DNA of 64,000 nt from assembly GCA_034440635.1 (NCBI GenBank), contig JAOTON010001526.1:3977001-4041000 (forward strand). Direction: 5' to 3'. Made by a program: the position numbers and the translations under genes. Of the stretch, positions 819 to 42,300 are shown in pieces. The stretch's first letter is position 1; each line of letters begins with the position of its first letter. This DNA is from Lepas anatifera (taxonomy: Eukaryota; Arthropoda; Thecostraca; Lepadidae). Below the pieces are notes generated by a model. It was not told where the DNA came from, did not search any database, and was given only the letters and a program-made list of their open reading frames with translations.

Positions 819-1042
819 CTGCTGCATGCTTCCACCAGGGCTTTTTCGTCAGGACTGCTGGCTTGGTATTCAGGCAGCTCATGGGCGCCGCATTCACCCA
901 GAGCGGAGTTTCCAGCGGTACCATCGGGACCTCGAGAGGAGCAGCTTCCCTCGCGTGACGGTGGTTCCGGGCTCTTCGGCTCGGACAGTTGCACCGTATG
1001 GCACAGTGCTAGCGCCGTGAGAAACCCGTCCAACTCAGCTTG
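819..1042 (-). CDS. ATP11-like: Flippase exon 12: start of nucleotide-binding domain
   Basis: A 224-nt exon; acceptor GGTCGTCAG, donor AGCAG|GTAGGC, leaving after two bases of a codon. It encodes [16 protein letters not shown], a Ser/Pro/Gly-rich variable loop, then [24 protein letters not shown] and SSPDExALVE are standard P4 N-domain motifs. The following exon (RLGF-type sequence) is not in the remaining 818 bases. Confidence 0.92.
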
Positions 1043-4000
1043 CTGACGACCAAACATAAGCGCATTAGGTTCGCCTTAGCAGCTAATAAGTCTGCTCGCG
1101 TGCAAGCAAAACGACGAAAAGCAGTAGAGAGAGCAATTCGATCATCTAACAAGACCCGAATACAGCAATGTACAATAACAGGCAGAAGCGGCACATATAA
1201 GAAACAGCGTGTTTCAAACAGAGTCTCTTTCGCCACAGACAGCGAAGACCCTGTCACTTACTACAATCTTACACGCCTTGCTGTGTGACATTCATATTTT
1301 CCGATAGCACCCTCTAAGCCTCTCGACTGAGCAGATGAGCTCGGTGCGCGGCTCCAATGCCTGACCTGCATCTCGTCCGAGATGGGTTCAGCTTCAGCAG
1401 CAGCAGCACGCGTCTGGTGCGGACTGCGGCTGGGACAGTGCGGCTCCAGCTTCCCCTCCGACTCCTTGTAGGCCCTTCCAGCCACGGAACAGTGCTGGAA
1501 CTGCATCTCGTTCTCTGTCAGGGTGCCCGTCTTGTCCGAGAACAGGTATTCTACCTGGAAACGAGACGGAGATGATTATGAAATGATTCGAATGTGTTTA
1601 TGTTGCCCACTTTCACTAACCTCTCTCTGAACACCATATCTGACAACCATCGGGGACTTTCCCTTCTAATTCTGTTGATCAGGATTTAACGCCCATGGCA
1701 GGAATCCTGAGAAGATTCAACTAATAAGTGTATCCCTTTCCAGCACAGGTGGTTGCACTCTCGCTCTTCAGTCCGCACGAGTAAAACCTCAGGTCTCCCT
1801 GTCATTCTTACACCCAGTCCAGCAAACAACAAGGGCCAGTTTCAATAACGACAACATTTGTGATTCAGATACAATTATTTGTGGTTTGGTTATAAGTCCC
1901 TAAGAATGCTCAAGAAAGCTCTACGTTTTGTTACCAAATTATTCTAAACTCACAGGTAACTCTGTGTAATCACCAATGTTGTCGTTCGCGAAACGGTAGC
2001 AGCTTAGGGCCTAAACTGCTACCGAAGTGCTACAGTATGGAACTGTGACGTAGCCTTGGAGATCCAGCCATTCGCCTCCTTTGGTTGACCTTTCCCATGC
2101 ATTAGTTGGCGGGACCTTCGCCGCTCACTTACTTCGCCAAGCATACCTCTTGACGTCTGGCTATGTCAGTGACCTGTGACACAAGCCAAGAGGAAGAATC
2201 GAGCCAAACGACAATGACATAACAAAGGGAAAGCTCACCTGGCCCAGTTCCTCGTTCAGGTCGGAGGTGTTGGCCTTCAGTCTTGTGCCGTCGTACATCA
2301 ACTCGTCGTCCCACTCTAGAAACCGTGTGCCCCAGAACTTGACCACCTCTGAAATGACGGGGAAAGGTTCGGAAAGAGAGCTTCTAATTCACCGCTTTGA
2401 GATATGCATGTACATGTGAGAATCTCTCTGGCTGCGTATATCGTTCACTTTCAAATAGACGTCCACGCAAATTGTTCATCCCCACCGTAAGCAAGGTTTT
2501 GCTCCATGTATGTAGATATGGTCAAATGCTTTGTCAACATGAACCTTACGCCTAGCAATTAATGTAACATGTCATCTTGGGCTGAGCAGTGAATATTCGG
2601 TGACCATAAGCTTAAGTCGTTAAACTGTTTTATCGTCTGTATGTGCCGTTCGCAGACATCCACGTTGTTTAAGCCACATGAAGCTTTTACAAACTGGCAA
2701 AGTTGAGGCTTCGCCTTCCTTATTTGAGCTAGTCAATCACATGATTTTTACAATAATTTCAGGGGAAACGTTTGCAAACAGATATCAATTTACAATCCAA
2801 AGCAATAGGTGCTAAAAATAAAGACTTAATCAGTACAAACGTCATGAGAGATTATGCCAAAAATGGGCATTTGACATGATACCTGTCGGATGAATAATCA
2901 GAAGAATAAATTAACGATAAAAATGTGCGGAGGGGATTTGGCTATGTACGCCTTTACTACTTACAAACGTTTCACGTGACTTTGAGTCATCTGCAGTGCT
3001 GCCTTTTATATCTCACCGATTGTGACGTATAGGGAAATCGGGATGACGTAGTTGAAGAGGATGAGAAACGACAGAATGGTGTTGACCGTCTGAAAGCTGT
3101 CGTCATCGGTGTCCAAGTACCAGTGGTATTCTGAAACGAAACACTGATATTGAAACAACCGATAGTCATACGATAACATTTTATTCATTTCCAGTAGTAC
3201 CCACCAGGGTTGGAGAAGCAGGAAAGTGATGCGGAGTCGATAGAGGGGCATGATTTTACGGGAGTGGAAACAAAAGCAGAAACGGTTGGATATTTACGCT
3301 TCAACGCCATTCGGGAAGAGAATGTTTAGGCAGCCGACCATCGAAATAGGCGCAAGTCTTCCAGGAATTATATTTTGGAGGGAACTGCTGAGGGAATGGA
3401 TGTTTTTCCAATTATCTGCAATCGGTTTGTTACTGTAAGCCCTTCAATGCGAAAAAATATAGTGGCTCTTTTGTATATTGACAAGTCCCGTGGAATTCCA
3501 TCTGAGATGGCTCCGATATAAGTATTTAATTCAGTGCTCCAAGACAGAAGAGCACATTCTACAATATTCTCAGAGATACCATCAATAAAAATCCGTCGAT
3601 GCCTATCGTTTCAAGCGTTAACTTACAACTGTTTGGAAAAGATAAGCACTTGATGACAGTAAGTCATAATTTAGATGCAGGTTAAGGTAGATTTAGCGTG
3701 ACTGTAGCAATAAGGGGCCTGTGCTGTCAAGGTTACCAATTATAACGGCTAGATTAACCTATGACAGTGCATGTTGGGAATACGGCACCTTTGTGGGATT
3801 CAAATTGGGACATCAGTAAGGTAGAGCATACTGGGAAACTCTGGTTTCATGTTCCAATTACCCCACCATTCAACGTCTGCGGAAAAAAGCACCGCAGACC
3901 TCCATCACAAACGACTTTTAACTGGCAACACCGACCCCGGTGGCACACTTTGGCAGATGCCACGTTAGTATATTTTTATTTGTATGTTAATCAAATACGG

Positions 4001-7000: not shown

Positions 7001-10000
7001 TGGCATTGACTGGAAAGAAATGGATTGAATAGCCCCTGGTGCCCCCCTTAAATTCGGAAGTTCCGTCGTCACTGGCATCAGATATCAGAGATTGGTCTTA
7101 CCCGGCACTGCGCTGTAAGTGTCCCTCACAGTGCTGTTGTCCGGCCCGGTGGGGTTGTAGATGGCCGACAGCATGGTAGCTATCGCCACTTCCACTACCA
7201 GGAGAAGCAGGAAGAAGAACAGGTACTTGTTCATAGAGCTGCGGTAAGACAGAGGTAACACGCGTTACTTTATGCAAAGCAAGGACAGGGATAACACTTG
7301 AATACTGGCCTGCCTGTCTTGTTTTTTCGCAGAAAGTGGCTAAACCATGGACGAGTACGGTACATACGATATGTATAAACTGTGGGTGGGAAGAAGACAG
7401 AAATCTAACTAACACATGGAAAGAATGTAGCATGAAACCGGTGATACACCAGCGCTGACATAAAAATATGTATATTATTAATCCATGTTGTGTCCATCAT
7501 AAAACATTTCATTCCTTAGTGTAACATTAGTGTGATAGTCGCGTGTGACCCTTAGTGTGATAGCCGCGTGAAATCCTCATCTATCTTGTGACAATTAAGA
7601 TGTTGCTTGTAAATTGTCATGGCTAATGATTCTAAGACCTTTAAAATTCCTTCAGGTTGGCTTCACCTTGGACCACGCGACCAAAGCTGTCAGACGAAAC
7701 CGTGTGCCGGTAACTTTTGCCCTTCTGTTCACTATTTTAGCTGTAAGTTGTAGTGAGGAAGGGCCTAACATGCACGCGGTTCGGCCTGGTAGCGTTGGAC
7801 GAAGGTAAAAGTTTGGCCCTCGATGGGTTCAAACCTGACGCTTTTTGCAAAAGGTCCTATCTTCGTATAGGAACTTCGGCGCCAAACTTTTAGCTAACCG
7901 TGTAACTCGCTGAGATAATATCTTCCAGCCAAGTAAAACTATGCATGTAAGTACGACTTTAGGCGCGTGCGATACAAGTGTTGAACGCAAGCAATTGTTA
8001 CAGTCCTCAGTCAGACAAAGACATATGCGCCGGTCACTTTTAGCGTTCAAAGACTGAGAATGAATTGACTGCAATAACCTAAATATTCAACACATTACCT
8101 TTAACAAAATACGACAACAGCCAGGTAGTGTGTTCTCACCTTTCCACTGAAGAGAACTTGTTGGCGGTGATTTTTAGATTGCGGGCCAGTTTTGTGTCCT
8201 TTCCGGTGTAAATGGCGCATCCTGAGCAAAAGTAAGAAGAGAGCACAAGTTTCAGATTAGCTGGACAGAAATCAACGGAAAGCGTACATGAAAGACTTGA
8301 TGGAAAAAGCACCGATTTGAAACGGACGGGTACTTGACCATCGTGAGTAAATCGCATAATTTGCACTAACTTTCAAGTACATTTTGCAAGCAAAACCTTC
8401 GCACGTACAAATATGCATTCTAACTGATGCAAGGTCGATATAAGTACGTTAATTAGCAAGTGAAATCCGGCGTTCAATATTCGTTTTTCATAGTCTTACA
8501 CAAGTCAAGGATTAGAATCCCACATTAAATATGCAGGATTGTTGTATTTGTAACATTGCAATATTTCCCCTGTTCACTGGCGGCCGCAGAGAGGGACCAA
8601 GAAGCCATGGCCCCCAAAATGGCGAGATGTTGGCCGTTTTTCTTTAAAAAAACACTATGTTTTTAGGTGTTCTCCCGAGTTGCCCTCCCCCACCCAAATA
8701 GAGCTCTTGCGTCAGTCCCTATCCAAGTTCACTACCTACTTTTATGAAACTCTGTGATTTAATCTAGCTTCAAGAATTCGCACGATACAAAACCTGTTGA
8801 ACGAGTCCGTCAATGCGACCAACAGCGCTAGCGACGAATGCCTTTGTGTTTCTCTGCTTTTAAATCAAAATTACGAAAAAAATCTGATAAACCTTTAAGC
8901 AATTAAGAGAAGCCTCGTCTCTGCTTCTTTGGGCGTGCCTACCATAGGCGGTGTGGGTGTTCTTCAGTCGTGAGCCGCGCAGCAGCACCTGTTCTGGACC
9001 CAGGGGTATTCGCTCCCGCAGACCACCACCCTCTGGCTGGAAGCTCATGGCGCCCACGAACTTGTACAGGTCCGGGTGAGGGTTCTCACAGTCGATCTCG
9101 GCCCGAATGGTGTCCAGTTCGGACGGTGTGCGCAGTTTTCGCGTCTGAGCGGGAGACGTCTTGGTCTGCGGAGTAGGGTGGTAGCAGTGATGACATCATG
9201 TTGCATAGGGTATTTAGCTGTTGTGCCAGCTCAGGCATGTTTGGTACTCACAGTATCTTGCTTCATTCTCATTGGTGTGTACATTTCTATCACCACAGGA
9301 AGTGAAATTAGCGAGATGCTTGCATGGATATCTTGTAAAGATCTTTTTTCCTTTAGGACTGCGACTGGGAAGAATATCATATCACACCTTACATTCTGCA
9401 TATCCTTTTCGATAAATAGATTTCAAGTGACATATAGGAAGTAAAAATTCACGAAACGCGGGAAATCGCACACTGCTCGTGACATGAATTGCGGGAAACT
9501 GGGCATGGCCGTTGGCACACAGTTGTACCGACAGAGACCAGGTTGGCGACGGGTGCGATACCTTGAGGTTGGTCTCTCCGTCCAGGTTGGCTGTCTGGAT
9601 GTAACACTCGCCGTGGGGGTCCGACGAGCTCAGAAGTACCAGGTCACACGGCAGCTCCTCATTATCCGACACACACACGATGTCCCCCACGGAGATGTTC
9701 TTCGTCTTCACCTCCTGTGTTCAGAGAGTGGACGCTTACACCTTTGAGCAGGCTTCATCTACAGGGAATCTGGCGCCTTTATGTGATTTGAACTGATATA
9801 TTAGCGTTGTAGAGTATACCGTCATACCCCTTGTTTCATATTTCATTTGTCTCCGAGCTTACGGGGAAACATGCCAAACTAGCGTAGACACTCGCGAAGA
9901 AAGAAACTCGTTCTAAGTGTACTGTTCTTTTTTACTGCATCCCGAAGCTTACTGAACCCCCCCCCCCCCCGCCGCTCTTACACATCTACCGATGTGGAAG

Positions 10001-13000
10001 TGACCGAGGGGTGAGGAGACTAGCAGGGCCATCATTCAGCTCTGGATATGCTTATTTCTAGCAAAACGACGAGCTTTTGTGACAAATAAGGTACGGAACC
10101 ACAGGCCTTCTTAAGCCGTAAAGTGCTGGTGAAATGCATATTTGTCACAATGATTTTCAATATTATCCGTGAAGAACCATAAGCTCATTGGCTTACAGCA
10201 GTCGTGTCGTTCGATCTTCTTGACTATGAACGTGCGTTGCTCACCATCAATACCCCGTATCTGACGACCCGGGCCGGCTTATTGTTGACCTCGTCGTCCA
10301 TCTTGTGCCGCAGCCAATCTTCGTAGCCCTGCTTAAGCATGGTGACGGCGACTACGAAGGAGAGCGGTAGTGCTGACGTCACCGGACTGACCGGACTGTC
10401 AATCAGCAACTGCCGCGCATGCGCAGAATTAGCCACCCTGACTTTGCTGGCCGATGGTACTTATTTGGACCAGAAACGTTTAGGATTGTGTATGCTAAGG
10501 GATAAAACAGACTATGAAGGCCAAATAAGCAGATTTTCCGTTAAGGCAAATATAATTCGGAACAAAGCACAGAGATATTTTATCTTGTAGGCATCAGTTT
10601 CTTTGCACAATCATAATAAGACTCAATTGCATTCATCAAGCAACACTTTTCAAAACTGAGGTTCGATGCGCTTTGCACAAAATTTACACCTCATTGCTGC
10701 ACATTTTAAGAAAAAAACGTATCGTTCCGACAATAGGAAAATCTAACTTTGAATACTTTTCGTTGAACTTCATCTGAATGCCCAAGGAAAACAACAAACT
10801 TATGTAACAGGAAATATAGACTTAAATCAAAATTATAAGACATGTAGCATACTACCACCCTCGTTGAATGCATGCCATGCAGTGCATGAAGACATGCTGC
10901 GTGCATATTTTTATAAAGGTTTTATAAGACAGGACAATCAAAAAAGCATATGTATCTCGGACCATGCACATTAAAGCGGAAGCGACTCACTTAAAAGCGA
11001 ACAGTTTGAAATACACGTGCAAACTTGGCAAATTCTACAGTGCGATTGATGGGACGGTATAAATACCTAGAATAGCGTAAAAGCTTGCCTTTTTCAGTAA
11101 CAATTAAGGACGTTTATTTAATTTGACGATATTTTGAAACATGTACTGAAAACTTGTAAGCAATGGAAGATCGATAGCTTGAGCAAGGTCTCATTAAGTT
11201 CGAAGAGCGTAGGCTCTAAGGAAAAAAAGGTATCTATGCATAAAACTAGAACATAACATATAGCAGGCATATAACATAGGCACATAAAAACAAAAACGAA
11301 TGCAATGAGGAAGTATTGTCGCTGTCTTGGTGAAAATTATGGAAATGATTAATGGGCTTAACCTAATATTGAATACCCCAACTGGTTTCAAAGGCGTCAC
11401 ATCATTTATCAAGCCGAATTGAAATTAAGGTAACTCTATCGACAACGAAGGCAAGATGCAATTGGAGCCTCAATCCTCACCTCTAATCCTGACATCCTCC
11501 CAGTGTTTCAAATTAGTCGTGGGATGGACTGTATTTTGTTCCACTGGAGCGACAAGTTCAGTTCTTTCATACATTTTCATGGCTTATGAACTCAAATAAA
11601 TAAGAAGAGCAATGTCACAGCCCAAAATTGATGGTTTTGATTTCAACTCTAGAAATTTTTCGCATATACTGAAAACAACGACTATAGATTCTCCCTGGTG
11701 GTAGTTCTTTAAGGCAGACAGGTTTGATTTCGGTGCCAAAAATTCATTGCATCCTAATTAAACACGCCCTATCTGAATTTATGTTAAGAAATTAAGTTCA
11801 TTGCATTTCCGTATGATTGTTATTTTGTTATCAAAAGTAACTGCAAATGCAAGAATGACACTTTAAAATAGCTTTCAGGCACTCCAGAGAAAAGTTAGGG
11901 ATGCTGCGGCGTCCCATTTGCACTTATACCTACTAATATTCATTTCTACCGCACCGTTAACATAACATGGCATGAGAGAAGGGCACAATTAAATTTAAAT
12001 TTGCCCTCCACTGGGTGCAATAGCCCTCACACTTTGGTAAACATGCCCTTGGCATAGTTTCTCTTAACTCAAACTACAGGTGATGTTCAGATCCGAAATC
12101 ATTTCTAAACAACAAAAGTGGTCAAAGTATGCAGTTTTATCAGCAACAATGCCATCCAATTGGATAAATTCGCCCAGCAAGTGTTTTTCCCTAATCCTAC
12201 TTACAACGGGCTCCCGGCTACCCGTATTTTCAACAGGAGGGGCAGATTCTGCCCCCCTCTAAGATCTCGAAATCTACCGCGACGATTTTCAAAATTCAAA
12301 CAGCCATCGATTCCTCTAGCGCTTAACTCTATTTTGATAAAAAGAGAAAAATTTCAAAATTTTGCCACTTGAGAGTAGAGTGGTTCAAAATATACACAAT
12401 TTCTGCCTGTTTTAGATTATCCGTATCTCTTGTCTTTTAGGCTTGATTTTCACAAAACTAGTATGGATTGACAGGAATTTGTTTAGAAATGGTCATATCT
12501 TTCATTTGAGCAAAATTCAAAATTCTAGGGCGAATCTAGGGCCAGAAATTTTGGAGGAATTATATGAATTTTTCAGGGCTTTTTGCAGAAATGCACACGC
12601 CAGGTACATTGTGATATATCTGATGTCAAGCAAACTGCTCAAATGCCAAAAATATATCAGAGGCAGATTCAGGGAGGAAAAATAGTGGGGTAAGACACAA
12701 ATTACCCCGCCTTTCAGGTACGGCTGCTTTTCAAATTACCCCGCCTTCATCCACCCCTGCCCGACCCGGGCAACACTCCTGGATCCGCCTATGGATGAAT
12801 TGTGTCCATTTTGAGTTAAAACTAAATGCATATATACGATGATTTGCTCCATTAAATGCTGACACAGCACTAAAATACACTTTAAAGTTAGTGAACACCC
12901 TAATTACGGTACCTGAGCACACCCATGATATCATATCATATAATACACGGATGGGATCAATACATCCTTATTTTTACCCCTCCCGTCCATTCTGTAGGCA

Positions 13001-16000
13001 GTTTATTCACTTTCGAAGAGTTCGAATGGATAACATTGTAAACCCCCGCCCCTTTTTGAGCTCCTAGAACCGCCTATGGCCGAAAATAGATCAACATACA
13101 CATCAAATGTCATCCCATTTGGGTGGTGTTAGAACTAAATGCATTTTTGGTGTTAGAACTAAATGCATAGTTACAATGCTTTGTCCCATTCAATGCACAC
13201 ACAACACTAAAATGAACTTGAGTGCGTGTGAACCCCCCCCAATTACGGTACCTGAGCACGCCTATGGCTTCCTATCATCATATAATACACATATGGGATC
13301 AATGCATGGCTATGTTTACCCTTCCCGCACATTCTGTACGCAATATATTTACTTTGGAAGAGTTCGGATGGATAGCATTGTAATCCCCCCATTCTGAGAT
13401 CCTGGAACCCCTATAGCCGAAATTATATCAAAATACACATCAACTGCCATCCTAAATATCAGTAATAGCATTCAAACATTGCAACTGCCGTCAATTCGTA
13501 ACAGACAGATTTATTGTACGACAAACGCAACGCAGGCATAAATGCTCGGCTTCTGGATAAAACCCCCAAATTAGCGAGCCATAGCTCCACCTCTGGCACA
13601 TATGTATATATTTTCAATTTTTCCGAGAACACGCGTTATTTAGTTTTAGGAAAAAGCACAAAATGTCAAGAGCATATATCAAACCGTTTCGGAGATACTA
13701 TGGAAAAATCTGAGGGGTGGGCAGAATCTGACCCCTGTTGGAAATAGGGCTAAAGGGGGAAGGGCAAACCTAACCCTACCGCTACAGCCACTGCTGCTTT
13801 CGAATGAAGAGCGTCCATATTTCTCTACTCATCTTCTTATCGTAGGAGCATGTTCCCGCAAAAGTATAGTATTATGCATTTAAAGATAGGCAAAATATAC
13901 ATTTTAGTTAATATACGAAAACTTCCCGGATAATTTCAACAATACATTCTTACATTGACTCCATTTCCCGCTATCTAGCTTTCAAATGAACACTTTGTTC
14001 GTCAAGTAACAGCAAGCAGCTGAGCACGCCCCTAACTTGGAGATGGCTTGCGTTGGGCTCTTTCTTCTTCCGCAGCGCTAAACCACGTGGCCTTCGCACG
14101 TAGCGTTTCAAAACACGAAGGCCGGCTCACCATCTTGCAGCTAGCAAAGCATCTTGAAAAAGGTGCGCTGCCGCATCCGTGGAGGCACGGCTCGTGGCTA
14201 GTGCTGCGGTTTACTGCAGACCAGCTGCCTGACTGGCCGTTTTTATGGAGCCCGTACAGCCACGTGCTTGGTGTACCTTTCTACCCTGGCTGGCACAAAT
14301 ACTCTGGTCTCAGCAGTGCTCAGTGCTGCCTACCCGCTAACCTTGGCGTGAGTGGGGAGATTCGGACCGGGCCTACCACGCACGAGGCATATGTGCACTG
14401 CACTCTACCTGTTCCAAGGCGCTGTGCAAAGCCTGTATTTGAACTGTTGCTGCAAATATGTTGCATAGTAGAAATTATTTGTTTATTTGTTTTGATAAAA
14501 ACAAATGACGAAACATGTTACGGTCACGAGATATATATCATACAAGTGTTTTGGAGATATTGTGCATCTTTAACCATCACGCTCTTCATGGGTGACTAGA
14601 CTAATTAATGCCCCGATTAACTGTGCATATTTTAGAGTACCAGGCCAAAAACAAGGTTGAAAACATAAAAGCAGGGGCTTAATTTCAACTCCAACGGCCT
14701 TGTGCACAGGTTGAACCGATCGCAGACAAATGCCATGTGCTAATCTCTAACGCCAGCGATTGCGCCCAGCCAGGTCGTGACGGCCTGACGCGGTCGATCG
14801 TTCACAACACCCGTGGGATTTAACCATTTTCACAGGGATCAAGAGGTGGCGTAAGTCCCAATACAACCCGTGGCTGTGTCAACTAAAGTTTGAGGTTGGA
14901 AATCATCCTAAGGCATGGCCTGAAGAGCAAACGGTCAAGGTTTGATCACTTACAATTAGCTAAAAAATTGAGGAAATGCATACAAAATTGAATATAGGTA
15001 AAATACAGATCGCATCTTGGAAATGAATATGAACATTTTACTTTTCACATACTGATTCAATCACTGCTATCACTGCTCCCGAAGCAGTAGGTGTCGTGCG
15101 TTACGTTTCGGCGAATTGTGGACTTCAACTGCCTAAATTTTCGGCAGCAAGGTAAATCATTCACCTTCGTTGCATGTATCACACACTTAAACGCCGCTGT
15201 ATCTATATTCATAAGCACCATCCTTTATGTTTCCTGATGCAATTGTCGCTGGTATGAATGCATTACGTGCAAGATATCCAAATGAACCCCACTGGCAATG
15301 GCGGATACGAGGGGGTTAGGGACTCAATCCCCCCGACATATCAGAGCGCCTAGTAAATACATGGCCGGATACTGATTCAAAGCTGTGGCCGAGGAGCCTC
15401 GAGCCCCTTAAACCCCCCCCCCAATGAAGTTATGAGTCCGCCACTGCCCGCTGGCGTACTGGCGTGAACTGACCAGAAGATACGGGTACTTTGGACCCGC
15501 TTACCGATGGCAATTCTCATTTCGACCAATTTGTGTGGCTGCTTGAAAACGTCTCCTGGGGACAGTCCACAATGTCTTGCTGGTGATTTCCAAATAAACT
15601 GGATATTTAGGCAGATTTATACACTCAATATCATCCTCCAGAAAGTGATAAGTAGATGTTTGAACCAGCTCATTAGCACAGTGTATAATGAAATATTCGG
15701 GCGTGTATCACATCTGTATTGATAACCCCACCCTGCATTGGCGGATCTAGGAAACTTTTGAAGGGGCCAAACCAACGTTGGGGGAGGGGGGGTTAAATTG
15801 ACAAACAATCGAAAAAAACATGGAAGTTTTTTAAGAAAAACGTCTAGAATTTGGTCTTTTGGGGGTCAAAAGATACTATGTGAGGCTTTGGAAGGGGCCA
15901 CGGCCCTGTTGGCTCCCCGTCCCCCGGATCCACCAGTGCCACCCTGTGAATTAATTGGCTTGGATTAGCGGGCGAAGCTCCAAATCGGCTCGGGCTGGTT

Positions 16001-16928
16001 ATGAACTTTCTGCGCCGTGGTGTACCCTACTTGGTATATTTCATCTAGCATTTGTGAGGAGGAGAATGGTGCAGGCAACGCCAGCACTCTCTCCCAAGCA
16101 GTTCTCTCGGGAGAACAATGCACAGTTTCAATCTTCTTGCGAAAAGCTATAGACGTTACGCTAGATGGATGGTAATGTACGCCAGAGTGAGAACACAGCC
16201 CTGATGCAGGCCGGTCAATGCGGCCGCGGCCGCTGTTGCCGACATTTAAAGTGGCCAAGAGGTGATGCTAAACACTGCCCTCGTGCTGAAATGTCCATGC
16301 TAAAATTGCATTCAGTGCTATCTGAAAAGTTTGTGCAACATGCAATAAGTCTTCACACGTTTGACATATACAACATATAGATCATCATTTAACAAGTGTT
16401 TATAAACAATATAGGGATCAGGTGCCAGGAGCCATGTTTGTTTGCTAGCTCTTATGTCTTTTTAGCAGAGTCTTATCAAAGCGACGCCGGCTAGTATTAA
16501 CAATAACGTCCATATTTGTAGGCGAATACCTGAAGAAGGGCGATGCACAGGAAATAGAAATTGGCGAGCCGACGGAACTGCTCGAAAAGGTTCTTCGGCA
16601 GGAACGTCAACAGAGAATACTGGAAAACATCGAAACACACAAACGTGTCAGAGTCGGGCATTCGCAACTAGTTTACGATGGCTGACATAAAATACACCTC
16701 ACCAATCACGCTAAATACCATGAGCGAAGATCCGGGACGTTTGATGTTGCAAATCCTTGCACCTGGCTTAAAGACTGCTGTACCTATAAGCGTGCTAATA
16801 TAAAATCAAGTGGATGATGTTGCACACCACGGAAACCTGATCCAGGACACCCTTGTTTTATTAGTTTTTTTCTTGTCTCTGTGTTTTAGTTCCCATCCCC
16901 CTCTCTCCCCCTCTCTCTCTTCTTTTTT

Positions 16929-16972
<44 letters not shown>

Positions 16973-19900
16973 GTTTCTCTCTCGCTTCCACTTTTCCTGT
17001 CGTTCTAGACCACGTACATACATACATATTTATCGTTACATAATTTTAGCATGAAGAACGATCCAATCTTTCCAGCTTGATATTCTAAGCTACCTATCAT
17101 CGTCCAGTCAGTAATTTCCATCGTTTATCATTAAACGAGGCATCATTGCAAGAATTCCATAAAATCAAAGACAGTCAAATACTGTTAGGTTTGATATAAC
17201 TAGAAATCGTGATGAGTTTGAAATTATGGTACCAATCTTTAATGCTATTACTTACTATTACTTACTATAAAAAAACAAAATTTATGCTAGGTATATCAAG
17301 TTTTACCAGCACAAAGTAGGAAGAATGGATAGTAACCATAGATGATGGCCTAAAGTGACCTCAGTTGACTGAACGATGGCTCACCACTGCTCTAGGTGCC
17401 TCAGGGGCCTCAGGAATTGACTTCACGAGCCTAGCCAAACCTTAGTAACAGTCTGGCGCAAGCTATTGAGGCAGTTCGCCCAAAACTAATTCGGGAACAT
17501 TTGTGTGAGTTCGTGTTGATAAGCGTAAACGGACAGAAGTCGTAAATCAAGTGTCGAAACTTTGCGTCCCCCTCCTTTCGACACCCATAACCCTGGCGCA
17601 GTCAAGCGTCACGTTTTCCTCTATTTTTCCTCAAATGTCCTATTTTTCCCGATGCCACCTAGCCCATGCCCTCCCCAATCGACCTCGTCTGGGTTCGCAA
17701 AAGCTTAGGATTTCCCTGTCGTGACTTCCTTACCACGAAACATTGTTTACCAGTGAAAAGGGTACTTCAAAACGCTCTGAAACATATGGTATCGTTGAAG
17801 TTACTCATTTTTTCCGGCCGAAGTTCGAAGGAAAGCAAGAAAAACCTATGACTGTCATCATGCATTATCTTTTGTAATCTGTATTCACTGAACTAGTTTT
17901 TCGAGTCTCTGTTGGAAACAAACCGCAATAAATTAACAAAATGTCACCGAAAAAAACTAGATGTTCTATGCGCATATCTGTCCAATCTCGCTTAGGTATT
18001 GCTCCTGGACGACTGAAACCGGTCACATATCCCGGCAAAAACTAGTCCTATGGCGTATATTTAACTTCTAGAGCTCTCTGAAAGCGAGTGAAGGTAACCT
18101 CTGCGTTTTTATGTGCCTATTATTCACGGTCATTAAACACATACGTGCTGTTTGTTACATTGATGTTCTGCCTCGCTTAGAGCCCTCAGGAATATTTAGC
18201 CCGATAATCATTGTTTGTTCTTTTAGTTCTGTAATCGACCATTTTGAACCAGGTCCAACTTGTGGAGGGGAGGGCTACTCACTGCTCAGGGTTTTCCGAG
18301 TTGGACAAAAAACAGTGACGCATAGAACGCCACTATACTTGGCTTAGCTTATCCTTAATAAGTTTTGCAAACAAAACAAATCATATCTATGCCATTTCAG
18401 GTCATAGCACAAGGACAGGTCAAGTGACCCCGCTTCAAAAATGTTCACCTTGACAGTTGTGAGCTTATATTTAATGTATTGACCTGATATGGATATCAAA
18501 TAATAGGGCTACTGAGAACTTTAAATCATGGTACCATGATTTTTTTCGTACGAATGACCTGGGCTCAGGTAAGGGCACAAGCTTCTGCATCAGAAATAAA
18601 TGACACCAATGTAAAAAAAGATTTATTTCAGTAGGCAAGACTCACATTAGCATAACATTTTACACATAGTGGTATCTCAGACAGGGGGGGTGGATTTATC
18701 TGTCTTTAGGGCTGCCCAGGTCTTATTGTTGTTCATTTTCAGGCGTGTAAAGTGTGTGAGGGCTAAAACAAACATAATATCATGTTTCATCCCTTTATTT
18801 GGTGCTGATACTGCTTCAAATTCGGGCACGTGTACCCCCAATGATTTTGGGAAACCCACGTCGCTGATCGCAGACCAATTCCAGGTATCTAGTTATAATT
18901 TTTGACCTGGGGTATTCAGGGACAAACCGGTCAAAAATGATGCAATTTGCCACCACCATGTCTAAAAAATATGAAGCTTTGTCTTCATTTTTATTTTGGG
19001 TCCTGAACATAGCTTTGAGAATATTTTCACCCTTCAACCAAAGGTGACCGAGTTAAAGCCCGATGCATTTTTTAGGAGGCCACGATGTAGACACATTTAT
19101 TTCTTCTTATCTCAAAGACACATGACCCCATCATTAAATTTTACACACCATTGAACTCTTCATAAATGAAAGACTTTTCAAAAAACAATGTTATTATTTT
19201 ATATTTTGACGTTTTAATGATGCGATTTTTTGTTTAATGACTTACCATGACCTTAAGGTAGTTCAAAATCACTTTTAAGACACTTCCAAGGTTTTGCTTC
19301 ACATTTTGTGTTTCAGTAAAAAAATAATAATAAAAATGCGTTCTGGCTGAAATTCCGAAATTGACCCCAAAAATATACGTATGTAGCCTATGGGATATGA
19401 ATTCATATATATTCACTGTCTGTAGGAAAAGCTGGGCGAGAAAAAGAAAAAGGGTAAAAATATTAAATAGTGTCATTTAGTTTGAAGTAACTTTAAGTGA
19501 TGGGATTCCATTAACCCGCGCCCCGCCGGGGGTCCGGCGCCACCTTCGCCCCACCGGGGGGCCATCGATGGCCCCCTCTAACTCCGAAAATATGGGCGTT
19601 AGCGCAAATCTGCAAAGTGCAATAAAAAGCTCGCGTAAATTCAGTAAGAAATTACTTTACATGCTTTAGTGCTCAGGTCAATGGTTTGACCTCCAGAGGT
19701 CAAATTAGGTCAAGATCGGCTATTTTCACTCAAATATGGAATGATTAAGCAAACTGGTCATAACTCTTATGTCATTAGAGCTATTGAGGCCTGGCAAAGT
19801 TCATTTGATAGGAAATTGCCAGTACTTTTTCCGCTATGTGGAACGTAAAGACCTCCCGTCAGTGGTTTGACCTCCAGAGGTCACCTCGTGACCTAATATG

Positions 19901-21335
19901 ACCTGAGGTCACGAAAGGTCAAAAAGTGACATTGCCGAATATCAAATAAAAGCCAGTGACAAAACAAACACGATGGTGTTTGTTTCACCGCTCTAGCTTA
20001 ATTAGGTCAAAAGTTATTGTCAAAATACTGTTTTTGACCTCTGGTGACCTTGGATGACCTTGGAAAAGTCAAAGGGTAAATATGACCCCTGGGATCCGTG
20101 AAAGGGTGTCCAAAAACGCTGTTCTGAGCAGTCTGAGTATTTGCAATCATTTTTGTGGCTTTTATATCATGAAACAGGTTTTCCCCATGCTTTTCCAATG
20201 GGAGAGGTCGCCTCGTGACCTGACCTCAGGGCACGAAATCGAAAAATCCCGGATATACACCTTGTAGACCCTAGAGGGGTCATGAAGTGTAGGAAGTTTC
20301 AAATTGATCGACTTCGAAATGTAGAAGAGCTCTTACAGAGCTCTTACAGAGCTCTTACAGAGCTCTAAAGTTGAAGTGAGGTGACCTTGGTTGACCTCGT
20401 CTGGTGACCTGACCTTGGGTGACCCGGGGTAAAAAATTTCAGGGATGATGGGAAAATTATGCAGTGAAAGGTAGAGCCCTCAACCGCGGTGCTGCGCCTC
20501 GTCGTTTTTCTGCTATCCCGGAAAAACCTTAGGGGCCATCGATGGCCCCGGTGGGGCGAGGGTTAAACATCATATCTTGGAATAGCGACTCATTAACAGT
20601 CAATAACAGCGATGAAGAAGTGTTTCTATAAATTCATCGCTTGTTTCATGGACGATGGTGAAATATAAACCTATAAGAAATGGTTCAGTAGGGTTTCAGA
20701 TTTTGGCCGATAACTTCGAAGGGAAGTAACAAAAGCCTTCATTTTGACATCGTTTGTCTAATCTTATCCTTTCAAGCCAACTGATACGCAATGAAAATGA
20801 ATGACTCTCCGCTCGGTAAAACGTTGGTGTCGGAGCGCTTTCGGTTTTTCTGGAAACCCTCGACGGTGAAAATCTTAAAAATTGGCGAAGAGGGGATGAC
20901 ATTTCACTTTTCAATTTTTAAAGTAAAAAATCTCGCGGTTTTCAAACAACGCGTACAAATGGTTATGAAGCGACTTGGGATGACCTTGGATCCGATCATT
21001 TTACTAAAAGTGGCCTTCGTATGCCTAATTCTATTTTTCACGATGAGAGGATTCTATTGATGCCCAAAAGTAAGCTCTAGTTCAGCCCAATCTCAGAAGC
21101 TAGAGTTAACAATTTGTCACTTACATATCACCAGCTGACACTTATTAACTAGTTGAGGCAAACAGTGACAAATATACTTTCGTAAAAATCGCTCACAGGC
21201 TATCCAACATCATGGATTCCAGGATCAAAAGAGCTTTTGGAAAACCCCACGCCCAGCCGAAGGTGGTTCGGAGACTCACTGGAGACGTGGTAAATTTACA
21301 TCCTAATATACATATGTTTATATATATATATTTTT

Positions 21336-21386
<51 letters not shown>

Positions 21387-24300
21387 ATTGCAAAGATCCT
21401 AGGCTTCAACCGTCTTCACTAGATTCAAAGGCTTTAACGATTTAGCCCGTCGAATACCAGTCTACTATTATGATTTGAAATGACAGTGAACGGCCAAGTT
21501 TGCTATTTAAATGTTGTTTAATAGACCAACCCTTCATATCCAGTAGATAAGTTAGTAACAACCGCATTGCTCGTGCGTCGGAACAATTACGAGGAGTCCT
21601 TGAACGACTATAACTCCAGAATTGTTCAGTGTTTTCGGGGGTTACAGCGGCTTAGTAAGCAAGCATGCAACTGTCCTGACGTCCAAAGTAACTAGAAAAC
21701 AGCGACAAAAAAACTCAGAAACGTAGCTCCAATATGGATAATATTTTGTATGCTTAAGTTTTGTGCGAAACCTAGTCTCGTAGCACCATCATTATAATAT
21801 GTTATTGTGGCGTTGAGGACTTTTGCAGCCGCACACTAATTACGGCCTTTCTTATTGGCCCAAGTTAACTTACATTGAAGTATAAATCGGCTCGTTCTTT
21901 CTGTCTTATATGAGAACAGACTGCCAAGACGGATAACTTTAGTAAGTCTAAACTGAAATCCAGAAGCGTTACCAATGGCACAAAAGAAAAGGGCCAGTTA
22001 ATCTTCAACCTTCTGCTGACAAGAAACCCTACCCTCAGCAACCAAAGACTCATCGGATTTGGATTCGCTGTTGCCTTTCGTACCAGCCAGTCACAAAATT
22101 TCCCGATTTCTTTCCAATTATTGCTGAAATCGGGACATATTTGGATGGAAAGTGGTGGGTGAAGTGGGCAGGCTTCCTGCTACCCCAATTCCCCTCCCTG
22201 TTTTTAAGTGTAGGTAAGAATATATCAAGCCTTAACGGGTATTCTGTTAAACAGACCATCAGCTCAATAAATCACCGGTCCACAGCCGCGAGAGTTCCAG
22301 CAGAAACACACAGGTTCGCAAAATGTTACGCAATGCAGCTGAATCGACCTGAAACGCAGCGGGACAGTAACATTGGACGAAAGCACGGTCTGGTAGCTGA
22401 ACCAAAGCGCGAAGCCAGAAACTGAGCCGGAGAAAGGAGGTCGACCATCATTTTTTTTAAAGCTTTTTACGAGAGAAAATATGAACAAGTGTTTCAGGGA
22501 AACAGTTCGCCCTAACATGTGCTCTGCATGCCGGCAGTAAGGCAATAATCAGAAAATATATCTCAGCATGTTCCATGTCTATCTGATTTCTTTCAATCAC
22601 AAGCTTATCTTATTTTTTTACCGAATGAAAAGAAGCAAAATTTCCGTTGTAAATAAGGTAAGAATACGATATAAACGCAGCAACGCTGCTATTTCGCCGC
22701 AATATACACATTAGAGTGACAAGAACGGCACTTTGTAAGTATGTATGTGCTCGATTTGAGGTCAGCCTGGTTTGATGTTTGAGGTTAATATTCACTTTTG
22801 GTGCTAACAAGTAACATTAACAGCGAGAACCAGCAAGACAGAGCCGTACTTTGCATGACGGACAAGACGATAGTGTGGTGGCATGAAATGGCTTAAACTG
22901 AAAACATCATATTACGTAGATTTGGAACGATTCTATGATAGTCAGCACAGCAAAGAAAAGTGCACTGCAGGTTGAAATTAAAGTTGGTTGGAATACACAT
23001 GGCACAAGGGTATTTTACTTATTTTTGCAACGTAAGCTTGCTTTCAAAAGAAGCATTGATTAGAATTAAGTGACGCCAAGAAAAGACAATTTTCTAGCTT
23101 TATCATATCTCCATTCCCTTTAAACCGGAAGTACATCATAAATACTATATATATGATGACAAAGAAATATGGAAAGCCGTTACATTAAACCAAGTTTAGA
23201 AGGATATAGTCACATGTCACAGCGTACGCATGCACATAAATTGCATACTAAACAATGTGTTTGTCTCCCTTCTCAAATTTCGTTCCTCCTGGACTAGCCC
23301 GGATTAGGACTGACGTTAGCTTAGCTTGTTAGACCAGTCACCAGAGATCGAAAAATATGCCAACTCGCCAACAATGTTGGTGACAAAAATAGACAAGACG
23401 GTGACAAAATAGGCAAAATTGGGCTCAGCAGCGTGATGAGTAGAAACTCAGTCTGTCAATATGCTCTTAAAAATATAAAAGCATTGTGATGATCTGACAA
23501 ATAATCCCCTTTTGGGTGCTAAACATCAACATTTTTGGCCACGCATGTTTGTATTCAAATCCGTTGGTGACACTTGGCACTTCTTTTGACCTCTCTGGGA
23601 CCAAAGCAAGCTTGCAGGCAGTACTGCCAGAAAGGAGGCATAGCAGACAAGAGTCCGAGGGGGGATGCCTACCCTGCTCTTACCGTCAGGATCGAGTTGA
23701 GGAGGTAATAGAAGTTGACCAGACGCCGGAATTGTTCAAACAGATTTACAGGGAAAAAGCTCCAGGCCGAGTACTGTAAACAGTTCCAGAAAAAGACCAT
23801 TTACACTACACTTATAGAATACTAGAAGCCAGGATGTTTCCTATAAACCAAAATGTACAAAGAGGCGTCTAAAATTCACAATTTAAAGTGGCAAAAAATA
23901 CACAGCCAGCTCAGACCACGTACACATGAAAACATAAAAAACTCACTTTCGACATATTTACAAACCAAGAGTGCTCAAGCACTCTCGATAAAGCTAAGAA
24001 AAATATTGTTAGGATTTTTGGCTACATTTTATGATGACAATGAGGAGTTCCAATGCATTATGCTTTGTGGAGGCCATTACGGCCTTCCGTCTCACACCAG
24101 CTATACATAATTCACAAGCACAGGGTCCCTCAACATCGGCGTGTGGATCAATTGTTTGCAGGCTACAACAGGTGAGTACTGCTGCCCTCCAGGCAAGGGA
24201 AGCATGCCAAACAGCAGCACTGCTGAGGGCAAGTTAGAGGAAAGTACGAAGTTACGTGGATATTATAATTATTATCGCAAAAAGTAGGTGTGCATTGATG

Positions 24301-27300: not shown

Positions 27301-30300
27301 TATCTGGATTTAAATTCCGATGCAGCACAATCCAGATAAAGGAGGGCACCGGCTGCTGGATGTACCTCATAACCCGTCACGTGCTTCTTACACAACAACA
27401 TCAGGGATTGTGCTCTTTTCTATACTAGACTTATTGATAAGGAGCTTTTTCTCCATTCCATATAATTTGAATCCCTGAGAAAAAAAGGTTTTTGTATATC
27501 AGTCAAATTAGGGCACTATACAACAGATGATGATAAAGTTAAGTGACGGTGGTTCTTTAAGTGTGAGATACTTTATCTGTTTCTATTACATTACCGCGAC
27601 ACCGAAAACGTGTGTTTTCTTTCTAGTCCAAATTCACCGCAGACATTCGTTACTTCCAGCATGAATGGATCCAAGGGCGTAAGGGGGGCACTTGTCTCTC
27701 CCGATCGAACCTCGGCGCCCCTGAAATGGTCACGGCACCCCCTGAAAGGTCTCTGGTGCCCACCGGAAATGCCGCTTCTTACACTCCCCTCGCCTAGGAT
27801 CCAAGTTTTGGGGCGCTCCTGCGATAGAATTTGGCGCCCACCTGATAGGTTTTGATGATCCCCTCGTTTCGGATGGTGCCCCCCTAAGAGCCATGTGCCC
27901 CCATCGGAAATTTGGGATCCGCTTACGACTTATATCCGTGTTCGCTTGGTTGTTTCAGCAATTCAATAATAAATAGTTAATAAAGGCATCAAGAGAAAAT
28001 CCATCCAGAAAGCTATAGACAATAACTAAACATGAGATCCAATCTCACGCCCCCTTCCATGTTACAAGTCTTAGAGCCCACCCACGCTTGGCAGAGTCTG
28101 CCCACAGAGTCTGCAAATATATTTTTAGCGTCAGTCTTTGCAGGTGCTTTTGTAAATTCGGTCGACAAAAATATGCACAGATTCTACCGGGTGTGAATGA
28201 ACTTTAACAGGCCATTGTAGCCAGCAAGTCCCTGCTCGGTACGGATGCCAACAATCAGAGAGGTGCCAAGATATTAGTTGCGAATCAACATTTAATCATC
28301 ATATATTAAATGATTGTCTCCAAACGTACCGAATCTCCACTCATGGCCAGGAGGACCAGCAGCTAACCATATCAACAAGAGCGTCCTCGTCATGCATTAT
28401 TCAACAGTCCCACATACAACGCTTAGATTAACAATCACGCATTGACGCCGACAGCTAGACTGGCATTAAGCCCATTCAATTAATGATGAAATGGAATATT
28501 TTCATCATCTTCCCCCAATTTTCTGTCCTTTATTCACACAACTTGAAAACTAAATATATAGCACTCATGAGGCAAATGTCCCGCCATCCTCTAAACGTAG
28601 GCATGGTTTGTGATATGACAAAATAATTTGATTGAAGTAACCAGACTCAAACGCAACCAAAAGAGAATAAATATGAATCTCTAAATGATACATCAGACTT
28701 GGCACTAGCTTCTCTTACTGGAGCTCCGTTTTACGGACGGAGCGTGGACCAGAGATAAAACCCTGTTTCAGAGAATATGCTGAGCAAATTTACAAAGTTC
28801 CCCAAAGCAGGCAAAGCCGGACAGGTTGTACAGGTATCATTGATAATTACTGGCTCTTCTTGTTTATAAGAGGGGGACCATCTGCCTTCAAAATACATAA
28901 AAATAATTCTACCCAACGGTTCTAAGCTACCAGAACTCGTGAAAGACGCAGGCCCCAAAAAACACAATAGATTTAGGACCGAATCTTAGTCAAGTTCGAT
29001 TTGGAAATTAAGACTTTAAAGGTAGCGGCAAATGCTCAAAACAGTAGCTCAGAGAGCATAGTAAGAAAACAATAAAATACACAGTCTTTTCTCCTTTTTC
29101 ATAATTGTCAAACAAAATGCAAACCCGTTAAATTGTGACTAATACAGTAGCCTAAGAATAGTCTTAAACAATTAATTCAGCCTGAATGCATGTGCATTAC
29201 GAAACACCAACATCAGAGAGGTAAGCTATGTAGGTGATTTCCTCGTCTGAGCAGGACCGGTGTTTCGGCTTGTGAACCCCAGCCTGACCTTAGACGTGCT
29301 GATGGTGTTGTCAGGAAAGACTGGCTCGGTGGCAGCGCCGCCGGCAGCTGCTCCGTGAAGGCCGTGACCTCCGACCTTCACACGCCGTGACCCGTTCACC
29401 ACGGGGTGTCGAAAATACTGCAAACCACGTGACATTGTCAGACGGCAAATGGTGGGGTGCAAGGAGCAACGATGTTAGCAGTTTTGTAGTGTCACAGTCA
29501 GGTGGCAGTGGTGGATTTAGCCGTCAAGTTTGAGGGGCAAGCCAAAGTCGACCAGCAAAAAAATTCATGTGGTGAGAGTATACCACAATTTCATTTGGCA
29601 GTAGGCTTTGGAGATAAGCTCAGGAAACGATAAGGAAAATACGTCGCAAGGTGAAACATGTGGCCACAAGATGCTTGTTTTTGCTATCCAAGTCCGAATG
29701 TTTACACTGAAGTTGATTGGTTCTGTTTGAAGCTGAGAGCTGAAGCACCAAAAACTTTGTTTATAAACTAAAAAAGAGTCTGGGCAAGAAGGAGGTCGAC
29801 AGCTTTGGAGAAAAGAGCAAAACATAGTTTTGCTCCGAGCTTTCCGTTGGGGGGGGACAAATGCCTTTTTGCCCCTCCCCTCCCCCCACTTTGGATCCGC
29901 ACTGTCAGATGGAATGTGTTAGTTTTCTTAACAGATTTTCATGCCTCAGCCTCCTGATCTGGTATATTTTGTGCCCGCTCAGCTGTAAACACTTATTTTG
30001 GCAGCGGGGTATGGCTGGAATCAGGAGGTAGGGGACAGAAGCCCACTCTGCTGGAACATTGGCGCCCCATGATGCATCGCGGTACCCCAGTACGATCCTT
30101 CTGACACTGCCCTGAGGCACCCCTGAAATATTGTCTCCCAGGACGTGAGTTAAAAAAAGCAGACATCTAAAACAACGCCCACAGTGCATCTACAAACATT
30201 CTAGCATATTGCATATACACTCATCAAACTGATTGCGCTCCCTAACACCAGAAAACGGTATGAGATTTATTTTGTGTACTATAATCTAGCTCTCATCTCC

Positions 30301-39300: not shown

Positions 39301-42300
39301 GGCATCGATGGCCCCATCTAACTCCGAAAATATGTGGATTAGCACAAATCTACAAAGGACATTGGAAAGCTCATGTGACTTCAAAATAATTTTACTTCAC
39401 ATGCTTAAGCACTCAGGTCAATGGTTCGACCTCCAGAGGTCAAATTGGGTCACGATAGGCTATTTCCACTAAAATATGCAATATTTAAGAAACCCGGGCA
39501 TAGCTCTCATGTCATTAAAGCTATTGAGATCTGGTAAATAAATTTGATAGAAAAATGGCAGGGCTTTTTCCGCTAAGTGAACCATAATGTCCTCCCACCA
39601 GTGATTTGACCTCCAGAAGGCACTTCGTGACCTAAAATGACCTGCGGTCACGAAAGGTCAGAAAGTCCTTGCCGTATATCAAATTAAATCTGGTGACAAT
39701 ACATACGCGATGACGTTTAATTCAGCGCTCTAGCTTGATTAGGTCAAAAGTTATCGTCAAAATACTGCTTTTGAACCCTGGTGACCTGTGAAGACCTCAG
39801 ATAGATCAAGGGAAAATATCGCCCCTGGAATCTGTCAAAGAGCTGCCAATAATGATTTTCTAAGCAATCCTTTTGCAATCATTTTTGTGATTTTAATATA
39901 ATAAGACAGCTTTTCCTCATACTTTTCCAATCGGAGAGGTCACCTCGTGACCTGACCTCAAGTCAAGAAATATAAAAATCCTGGACATACATTCTGTAGG
40001 CCCTGGAGGGGTCATCAAGTGTAGAAAGTTGCAAATTGATGGGCTAAGAAATGTATCAATAGCAGAGCTCAAAAGTTGAAGGGAGGTGACCTTGGTTGAC
40101 CTCACCTGGCGACCTGACCTAGCGTAACCCGAGGTAAAAAATTTCAGAGATGGTGGGAAAATGATGATGGAGTGAGATGTAGAGCCCTCTAAATCTCACC
40201 TTATTCTAAAAAAACCTTAAGGGGCCATCGATGGCCCTGGCCCCCGATGGAGCGAGGTTTAAATGACCGTTTTATTTCGGCATCATTACCTTTACATAAC
40301 AAAATTACGTCACGGCTATTTTGTTTTTTTCTAGCATGTAATTACGTTTAACAAAGCCGGAAGAAAACTTGAAGATACAAATAATTTTGTGATGAGGGAG
40401 TTTGCTAGTTTACCTACATGATGTGGATCCTGCGAATGAACAAATCATGAGCAAATGCATTTTCCTTATTTCAAAAATAGATATTTTCACATTCTCGACG
40501 TTAAAATGCTATCCGCTTCGATGAAACGCTCAGGGGAGCGTCTTTCGCAACTCTACCAAATACCAGGTAGCATATAGCAACTGGTTAGGGATATGCAATT
40601 CGGACAAGAGGGACACTAGTTTTGGACGGCGCAACCTATCGATGAGGAGGGGGGGCAGATATTATCGCCGGGGCGCTAATGCTCGCATTTTAGGGAGGCG
40701 CGATCAGACGTTTCAGGGAATGGAGCAGGGTCGTTTCAGGGGGCGCCGGGACCGTTTCAGGGGACACTAAGGCTTGCTCGAAGGAGGGGTGAGCACGTGA
40801 CTCCCTAGCCCCCTGGACTGGTCTGTGTTTGGTAGACACGGCTTTACGTCACGTGCACTCAGCTTTTCCCTATGTTGATTACAAATCTAGAAATCAGTTC
40901 CTATATAACGACACGCCGGGGCAAAAATACAAAATTTTTAAGTATTGTTTCAGCTCAGTACGTTTTTCGTGAATTAGCACATGCTAAATCCGAAAATCTA
41001 CTTTTGGTCACACAATTTGGCTAAATTCGTCGGTTGTTTATATTGCCATCACTTTAGTGTTGTCGAGTGCCTATATCAGCTTCTAAAAGTCTCTCTATAT
41101 CAGCTTCTAAAAGTCTCTCTATATCAGTTTCTAAAAGTCTCTCTATATCAGTTTCTAAAAGTCTCTCTATATCAGTTTCTAAAAGTCTCTCTATATCAGT
41201 TTCTAAAAGTCTCTCTATATCAGTTTCTAAAAGTCTCTCTATATCAGCTTCTAAAATTCTCTCTATATCAGCTTCTAAAAGTCTCTCTATATCAGTTTCT
41301 AAAAGTCTCTCTATATCAGTTTCTAAAAGTCTCTCTATATCAGTTTCTAAAAGTCTCTCTATATCAGTTTCTAAAAGTCTCTCTATATCAGTTTCTAAAA
41401 GTCTCTCTATATCAGTTTCTAAAAGTCTCTCTATATCAGTTTCTAAAAGCCTCTCTATATCAGTTTCTAAAAGTCTCTCTATATCAGCTTCTAAAAGTTT
41501 CTCTATATCAGTTTCTAAAGAATAGGCAAGAGCCGTCCATAAACTGCCTAACGCAAATTTTTGTGATTTTTGCCGGGTGTCCTGCGCACAGGTGAATCCA
41601 GGAGACAAGGTAGGCACTTGCTCCCTTCCCCGGTCGACCCTCAGCGCACCCTGAAATGCTCACGGCGCCCCTGAAAGGTTGTTGTCGCCTCTTGAACCGT
41701 CGTTTCCCATTTCGTCCCTTCCCGTTTTCCCCAAGATGCAAGTATCAGCACCTCCGTGATAAGGTTTGGCGCCCATCGGATACATTTTACCGTCAAAAAG
41801 TGGCGTCCCGCCTGACAATGTGCTATCCCATCGGAAATCCTGGATCCGCCTATGGTCTTGTAGCGGAAATCACTTTTTGGCACGTTATATTGTATTCTGC
41901 GAGAGACTCGGAAACAACAAGACAGCAAGAACTTAAACTTCCTATAACTCATTTGATATACATTTTGTTGAATTAAATCTATTTATATCGTCCGGACTAT
42001 TCAAAGAGGTAGCTACTATTTTACCTGTTTTTTTTGCTTTTAAATACGACACACCATCTTTTTATCTAACACCAGAGCTATATAAAATCGAAAGCCGCCA
42101 AATATAGTCAAATTCAGTGGGAGTTCTAAGCACACTTTTCGGTTTCAGCATGCCCTAATGCACCAAAAAGATGCTGAGTTGTGACCATCCCCGAAAATGT
42201 ATTTTACATCTACCTTCGACTCACTAGACTATCTTCAAGCATTTAATAGTTCCTATCAGTACGGGATAAAGTATCTTTCATTAGGTTTTTCATTGTGTGA

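Follow-up and report, generated by a model that had tools for sequence, protein, structure and literature searches.

A flippase gene of the barnacle Lepas anatifera, identified by its sequence as a P4-ATPase of the ATP11 subfamily, contains two homologous exons, here designated A and B, each of which encodes the first transmembrane segment (TM1). We consider it probable that the duplication of this exon took place in an ancestor shared by the barnacles compared here, that each transcript carries one of the two copies, and that the B copy confers a changed choice of lipid headgroup. The presence of two alternative TM1 exons in one flippase gene had been proposed in a first-pass annotation of the window, i.e., the whole 64-kb stretch of DNA analyzed here, and this proposal is supported by predicted proteins of two other barnacle genera, which carry either exon type.

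Gene layout and structure of the TM1 exon pair

The first twelve exon positions of the gene are located on the minus strand of the window, from 43342 down to 819 (Table 1), with exon B at the upstream side of exon A and both positioned between E2 and E4. A tblastn search of the 64-kb window with 21 fetched flippase proteins identified 13 gene places, with TM1 being represented twice and the other coding exons once. Fifteen further matches, with E values of 0.088 to 0.95, were taken as chance, and across the whole window neither a third TM1 copy nor a second duplicated exon was found with a score better than E 0.088. Each of the 13 donors (11 common exons plus A and B) is GT, and each of the 12 acceptors is AG. 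Whichever TM1 exon is used, the spliced frame of E1, E2, A or B, and E4 to E12 is open over 637 residues and consistent in phase; the start codon assigned to E1 was placed by alignment only. TM5-TM10 and the C-terminus fall beyond the window; for comparison, the orthologue P0054 from Amphibalanus is 1305 residues in length.

Table 1. Coding exons of the barnacle flippase gene within the window, in the order of transcription
Exon	Positions	Strand	Description	Basis
E1	43025..43342	(-)	Putative start codon (MVRQAV...GFVRQGSSK); donor CAAG/GTCAGT	tblastn versus Pollicipes P0004 N-terminus, E 4e-24
E2	29289..29417	(-)	Constitutive; upstream partner of A and B; donor at 29289	tblastn, splice frame
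B	23684..23773	(-)	Alternative TM1; last residue Thr at ATP11C Gln79 position	Type shared with P0003, P0004; alignment to 6lkn
A	16530..16619	(-)	Alternative TM1; last residue Gln at ATP11C Gln79 position	Type shared with P0054; alignment to 6lkn
E4	10245..10409	(-)	Constitutive, downstream partner; TM2 with Thr90/Ser91 equivalents; acceptor at 10409	
E5	9562..9714	(-)	Actuator domain, DGET motif (DGETN)	
E6	8943..9144	(-)		
E7	8140..8221	(-)		
E8	7102..7238	(-)	TM3 by position	tblastn, splice frame
E9	3017..3130	(-)	TM4, PISL, Asn352 equivalent	
E10	2239..2348	(-)		
E11	1366..1554	(-)	DKTGT phosphorylation motif	
E12	819..1042	(-)	Gene leaves window at low end after this exon	tblastn, splice frame

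The P4-ATPase signature comprises PF16209 in both TM1 exons, DGETN in E5, PISL in E9 and DKTGT in E11; DGET, DKTGT and PISL are family-defining motifs of the P4-ATPases. Among solved structures, ATP11C (ATPase IG; 6lkn) ranks first, with E values of 1e-50 for the protein with A and 1e-47 for that with B. Many names among the 120 listed protein matches carry no subtype, and those that do are all IF, IG, IH, 11A or 11C.

Several repeats were also observed in and around the gene. The first intron (E1 to E2) harbors a minisatellite at 41071-41519 (24-nt unit, 18.7 copies, 97% matches), and a compound minisatellite array with periods of 39, 51, 90 and 141 nt is located upstream of E1 at 47334-48153; extended open frames run along both strands of the two arrays, which are probably repeats without a coding role. 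The intron between A and E4 contains a tandem duplication at 12815-13452 (337-nt unit, 1.9 copies, 79% matches).

The structural description of the exon pair given by the first-pass annotation was upheld throughout. Both exons are 90 nt in length and phase 0-0 with AG/GT borders (exon A: acceptor TTTTCCAG, donor CAG/GTATTC; exon B: acceptor GTTTACAG, donor ACG/GTAAGA), and the flanking donor and acceptor are located at 29289 and 10409, respectively. A recount confirmed that A and B have 18 of 30 residues in common, with 53 of the 90 bases being identical, that their last residues are Gln and Thr, respectively, and that A carries Lys and B carries Val in the P-K/V-N-L motif. Both exons score above the cut-off of 29 bits for the Pfam PhoLip_ATPase_N domain, at 54.6 bits (A) and 39.7 bits (B), and the mean hydrophobicity of TM1 is a little lower for B (1.55-1.61) than for A (1.89-2.05).

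The pattern of their differences suggests that purifying selection acts on both exon copies. The two copies differ at 37 of 90 bases, 21 of these 37 differences being at third codon positions, and the third base differs in 15 of the 18 codons that specify the same residue. When neutral copies with 37 changes in 90 bases were simulated under a simple one-lineage model of drift, at least 18 of 30 residues were retained in one of 20000 runs; since 37% of the simulated copies contained no stop codon, an open frame alone would constitute weak evidence. Comparison of 1 kb on each side of A and B returned a match of 44 bases located at the exon (E 0.004), and in these flanks no remnants of a recent duplication were found beyond the exon, where the only matches had E values of 0.54 or worse; the duplication therefore looks old.

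Relatives, conservation and age of the exon pair

Using exon B as the query, the best relatives over the TM1 region were found to be P0003 of Amphibalanus amphitrite (83% identity) and P0004 of Pollicipes pollicipes (82%), with 72% identity for the Amphibalanus protein P0054. Each of these three predicted proteins contains exactly one TM1 exon, which is of type A in P0054 and of type B in P0003 and P0004, so that outside L. anatifera type A is known from one species (Amphibalanus) and type B from two (Amphibalanus and Pollicipes). In a 14-row tree constructed without the TM1 exon, the gene in the window (whose row is 44% filled) groups with P0054 and P0004 with support of 100/100, this group being among the four starred branches of 11 inner branches; the branching of the window gene before P0054 and P0004 has support of only 83/48.

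The two Amphibalanus proteins, P0003 and P0054, match at 1112 of the 1138 residues that align outside the TM1 exon and at 13 of the 30 within it, P0003 being an imperfect protein model that is devoid of the E5 and E11 segments and of a third stretch near the C-terminus. As both derive from separate contigs, the differences that remain may stem from alleles or from the assembly.

Between species, A exons share 23 of 30 residues and B exons share 22, 21 and 28 of 30, whereas the six combinations of A versus B share 13 to 18. Where both can be compared, each exon is thus closer to its own type in another species than to its partner in the same gene, which places the duplication before the divergence of these barnacles. 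The conservation of A (23/30) and B (21-22/30) relative to orthologues is similar to that of neighboring exons, i.e., 45-46 of 55 residues for E4, 37-38 of 51 for E5 and 41-43 of 67 for E6, with a lower value for E8 (18-19 of 45). The notion that one copy is decaying, or is part of a separate gene, is exceedingly improbable, as both copies lie between the same exons, on the same strand, with open frames and splice sites, and it is contradicted by the orthologous barnacle proteins of both types; no observation spoke in its favor.

The B type was found only in barnacles when the B exon of P0004 was used as a query, a search that relies on shared exact five-residue words and that returned three proteins from four candidates. 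The third protein, P0123, was rejected as a B type, as it groups with insects and possesses Lys58 and Ser79. The protein set had been clustered at 90% identity, with P0004 representing two members, and for this reason an A-type isoform of Pollicipes, or B-like isoforms of other animals, could be hidden; no A-type Pollicipes protein was seen in this clustered set. The idea that A and B represent ancient exon types of the Bilateria (T-F-L versus W-N-F forms) was dropped, because both forms occur among single sequences of many animals.

Same-species pairs of ATP11 proteins were also observed in two decapods, namely P0075/P0127 in Procambarus and P0134/P0147 in Homarus. In both pairs, identical runs of at least 20 residues alternate with stretches at 54-59% identity (362/674 and 400/674). 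The identical runs largely coincide between the two genera, with 184 shared columns as compared to 61 expected; within these columns Procambarus and Homarus are identical at 156 of 184 positions, so that the runs themselves differ between species. TM1 is diverged in these pairs, ending in Gln or His at the lipid-selecting position, while in each species an identical run spans exon 4 from its third residue onwards. These pairs may reflect a single gene with multiple alternative exons, or tandem paralogues subject to tract-wise gene conversion. Those borders of the runs that fall inside barnacle exons 4, 6 and 7, with end points in exon 7 that differ between the two species, favor gene conversion unless decapod exon borders differ from those of the barnacle.

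The lipid-selecting residue and the proposed isoforms

In both isoforms, an ungapped alignment pairs the last residue of the TM1 exon with residue 79 of human ATP11C (6lkn). The first-pass annotation had pointed to the yeast QQ/GA site at this place: its first position is indeed specified by the last codon of the exon, but the second is outside the exon and corresponds, in an alignment with Drs2, to the first residue (Leu) of the shared exon 4. In chains 9vkg and 9vsl, Glu occupies the position of residue 79.

The equivalence of ATP11C residue 79 and ATP11A residue 84 is given in PMC12723151, which also reports that Gln79 of ATP11C forms a hydrogen bond with the phosphatidylserine headgroup and binds it together with Thr90, Ser91 and Asn352. 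According to the same paper, the Q79E (ATP11C) and Q84E (ATP11A) mutations result in a gain of phosphatidylcholine activity, which in ATP11C Q79E involves altered side chains of Ser91 and Asn352, whereas ATP11C Q79A and ATP11A Q84A retain phosphatidylserine activity and acquire no phosphatidylcholine activity; furthermore, a change at Gln84 of ATP11A has been linked with neurological deterioration in people, ascribed to phosphatidylcholine transport (PMC12723151). In yeast, as described in PMC12424579, Drs2 Q237G/Q238A and Neo1 Q209G disrupt phosphatidylserine recognition and spare phosphatidylethanolamine transport, while Dnf1 and Dnf2 become phosphatidylserine/phosphatidylcholine flippases when Gln replaces Gly; phosphatidylcholine is gained by ATP11A Q84E but not by the like change Q107E in ATP8A2 (PMC12424579).

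The TM1 residues were tallied in 223 segments from 222 of the 223 fetched proteins (P0104, in which the motif was unmatched, was left out). In this sample, which was ranked by similarity and is rich in vertebrates rather than a fair census, position 79 is Gln in 208 segments, Ala in seven, His in four, Ser in two and Thr in two, the two Thr-containing proteins being the barnacle B proteins P0003 and P0004. Ala is present in P0008, P0016, P0023, P0044, P0112, P0146 and P0220, six of which are from insects, Ser is present in the locust protein P0219, and three of the four proteins with His are from decapods.

Six residues (ATP11C numbering) are shared by all three B exons and found in neither A exon: Trp53, Val58, Tyr72, Leu74, Asn75 and Thr79. 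Of these, Trp53 and Leu74 are also frequent in other proteins (190 and 39 of 223 segments, respectively), while each of Val58, Tyr72, Asn75 and Thr79 occurs in just two of the 223 segments, those of P0003 and P0004. At residue 68, the B exons have Val or Ile and the A exons have Ala, Val68 also being present in two moths. Asn75 precedes Thr79 by one helical turn, and both could face the same way. The equivalents of Thr90, Ser91 and Asn352 are encoded by E4 and E9, exons common to both isoforms, and stay the same when A and B are exchanged.

In the proposed mechanism, E2 would be joined to either A or B, and either of these to E4, so that the exon choice would replace the TM1 segment at the entry gate and leave the rest of the pump identical. 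Inclusion of A would place the usual Gln at the gate, and the A isoform is expected to be a usual phosphatidylserine/phosphatidylethanolamine flippase. Inclusion of B would place Thr at the same site, and the B isoform may have an altered headgroup choice, most likely with weaker activity toward phosphatidylserine relative to phosphatidylethanolamine, and possibly with an opening to other lipids.

Alternative readings and comparison with known systems

The first-pass annotation had regarded mutually exclusive splicing as the natural reading. The predicted proteins agree, in that all three barnacle proteins contain exactly one copy, but no feature of the sequence forces exclusion: as both exons are 90 nt, double inclusion or double skipping would stay in frame, and exclusion by frame, steric hindrance or U12-type incompatibility is inapplicable given exon lengths that are multiples of three, an intervening intron of 7.06 kb and sites that are all GT-AG. 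These same properties would allow A and B to be ordinary cassette exons, either both included, to give two TM1 segments and a longer N-terminal part, or both skipped. We regard such use as improbable, in view of the single copy in each of the predicted proteins and because a second TM1 copy would be expected to disturb the topology of the protein in the membrane. Furthermore, A and B are adjacent homologous exons of the same length and phase with compatible splice sites, in agreement with the length, frame, splice-site and homology criteria for predicting mutually exclusive exons that are named in the title of PMC3228551. Alternative use of A and B is well supported by the predicted proteins; the exclusion may be strict and regulated. 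The interval from E2 to E4 contains 35 inverted repeats in this one species, and among the 25 longest of these no docking/selector pairing at A or B was found. Of the 25, 23 are located within a single simple AT repeat near 21.3 kb; the remaining two, at about 12.2/13.7 kb and 25.1/25.5 kb, are away from both exons. Trans-acting factors, or an RNA structure that is invisible in a single species, remain as options for the means of exclusion.

With regard to a substrate switch, which the first-pass annotation had suggested, the position was correctly identified, and the case is stronger than originally claimed because the last codon of the exon corresponds to ATP11C Gln79 and ATP11A Gln84; on the other hand, the retention of phosphatidylserine activity by the Ala mutants, the behavior of ATP8A2 Q107E and the natural occurrence of Ala or Ser in insects imply that Thr may change little. 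The effect of Thr79 in exon B could therefore be small or could depend on Asn75. It is accordingly conceivable, if rather less likely than a change of headgroup choice, that A and B are alternatively spliced but serve CDC50-subunit pairing, location, acyl-chain preference or turnover rate instead. Such a role would accommodate the observation that 11 of the 12 A/B differences in this gene are located elsewhere in the exon than the Gln79 position, that the B exons keep Val58, Tyr72 and Asn75 no less strictly than Thr79, and that the Q79A protein is functional toward phosphatidylserine (PMC12723151). Against such a role, one of the few B-specific residues that do not vary across three barnacles is at the best-documented lipid-selecting residue of the family, and a changed headgroup choice remains the preferred reading. 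A wider proposal, i.e., that one barnacle gene specifies two flippases of different lipid choice through the exchange of a selector helix, and that decapods may independently have a related solution, is put forward tentatively, with the balance lying somewhat against it.

Among the matches listed in a mostly open-access literature, no alternative TM1 exons of a flippase are described in titles or in the opening parts of abstracts. If true, a conserved exon swap at a lipid-selecting residue would point to an ability of animals to adjust membrane asymmetry at the post-transcriptional level. The A and B isoforms, being identical outside 30 residues, would also constitute a ready-made matched pair of pumps with which lipid selection at the entry gate could be tested. 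The lipid choice of flippases is usually discussed gene by gene, to which the title of a paper on isoforms of ATPase II/ATP8A1 (Ding et al., 2000) is a partial exception: the isoforms reportedly affect ATPase activity and phospholipid specificity. By title, this is the nearest precedent, and the isoforms in question reportedly differ outside TM1.

The mutually exclusive exons of Dscam1, myosin heavy chain, unc-32 and Cav2 are likewise homologous alternative exons within one gene. Human ATP11A Q84E and ATP11C Q79E resemble the barnacle case in that the proteins belong, by sequence, to the same subfamily and are changed at the same residue position; the human change is a rare disease-associated mutation to Glu (PMC12723151), whereas the barnacle change is to Thr, is specified by an alternative exon and is present in three barnacles. 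In yeast, Gln in TM1 marks the phosphatidylserine flippases off from the rest, as exemplified by Drs2 (Gln237/238), Dnf1/Dnf2 (Gly) and Neo1 (Q209), and this difference exists between genes or is introduced by mutation (PMC12424579), whereas in the barnacle it is found within one gene, where it would be selected by splicing.
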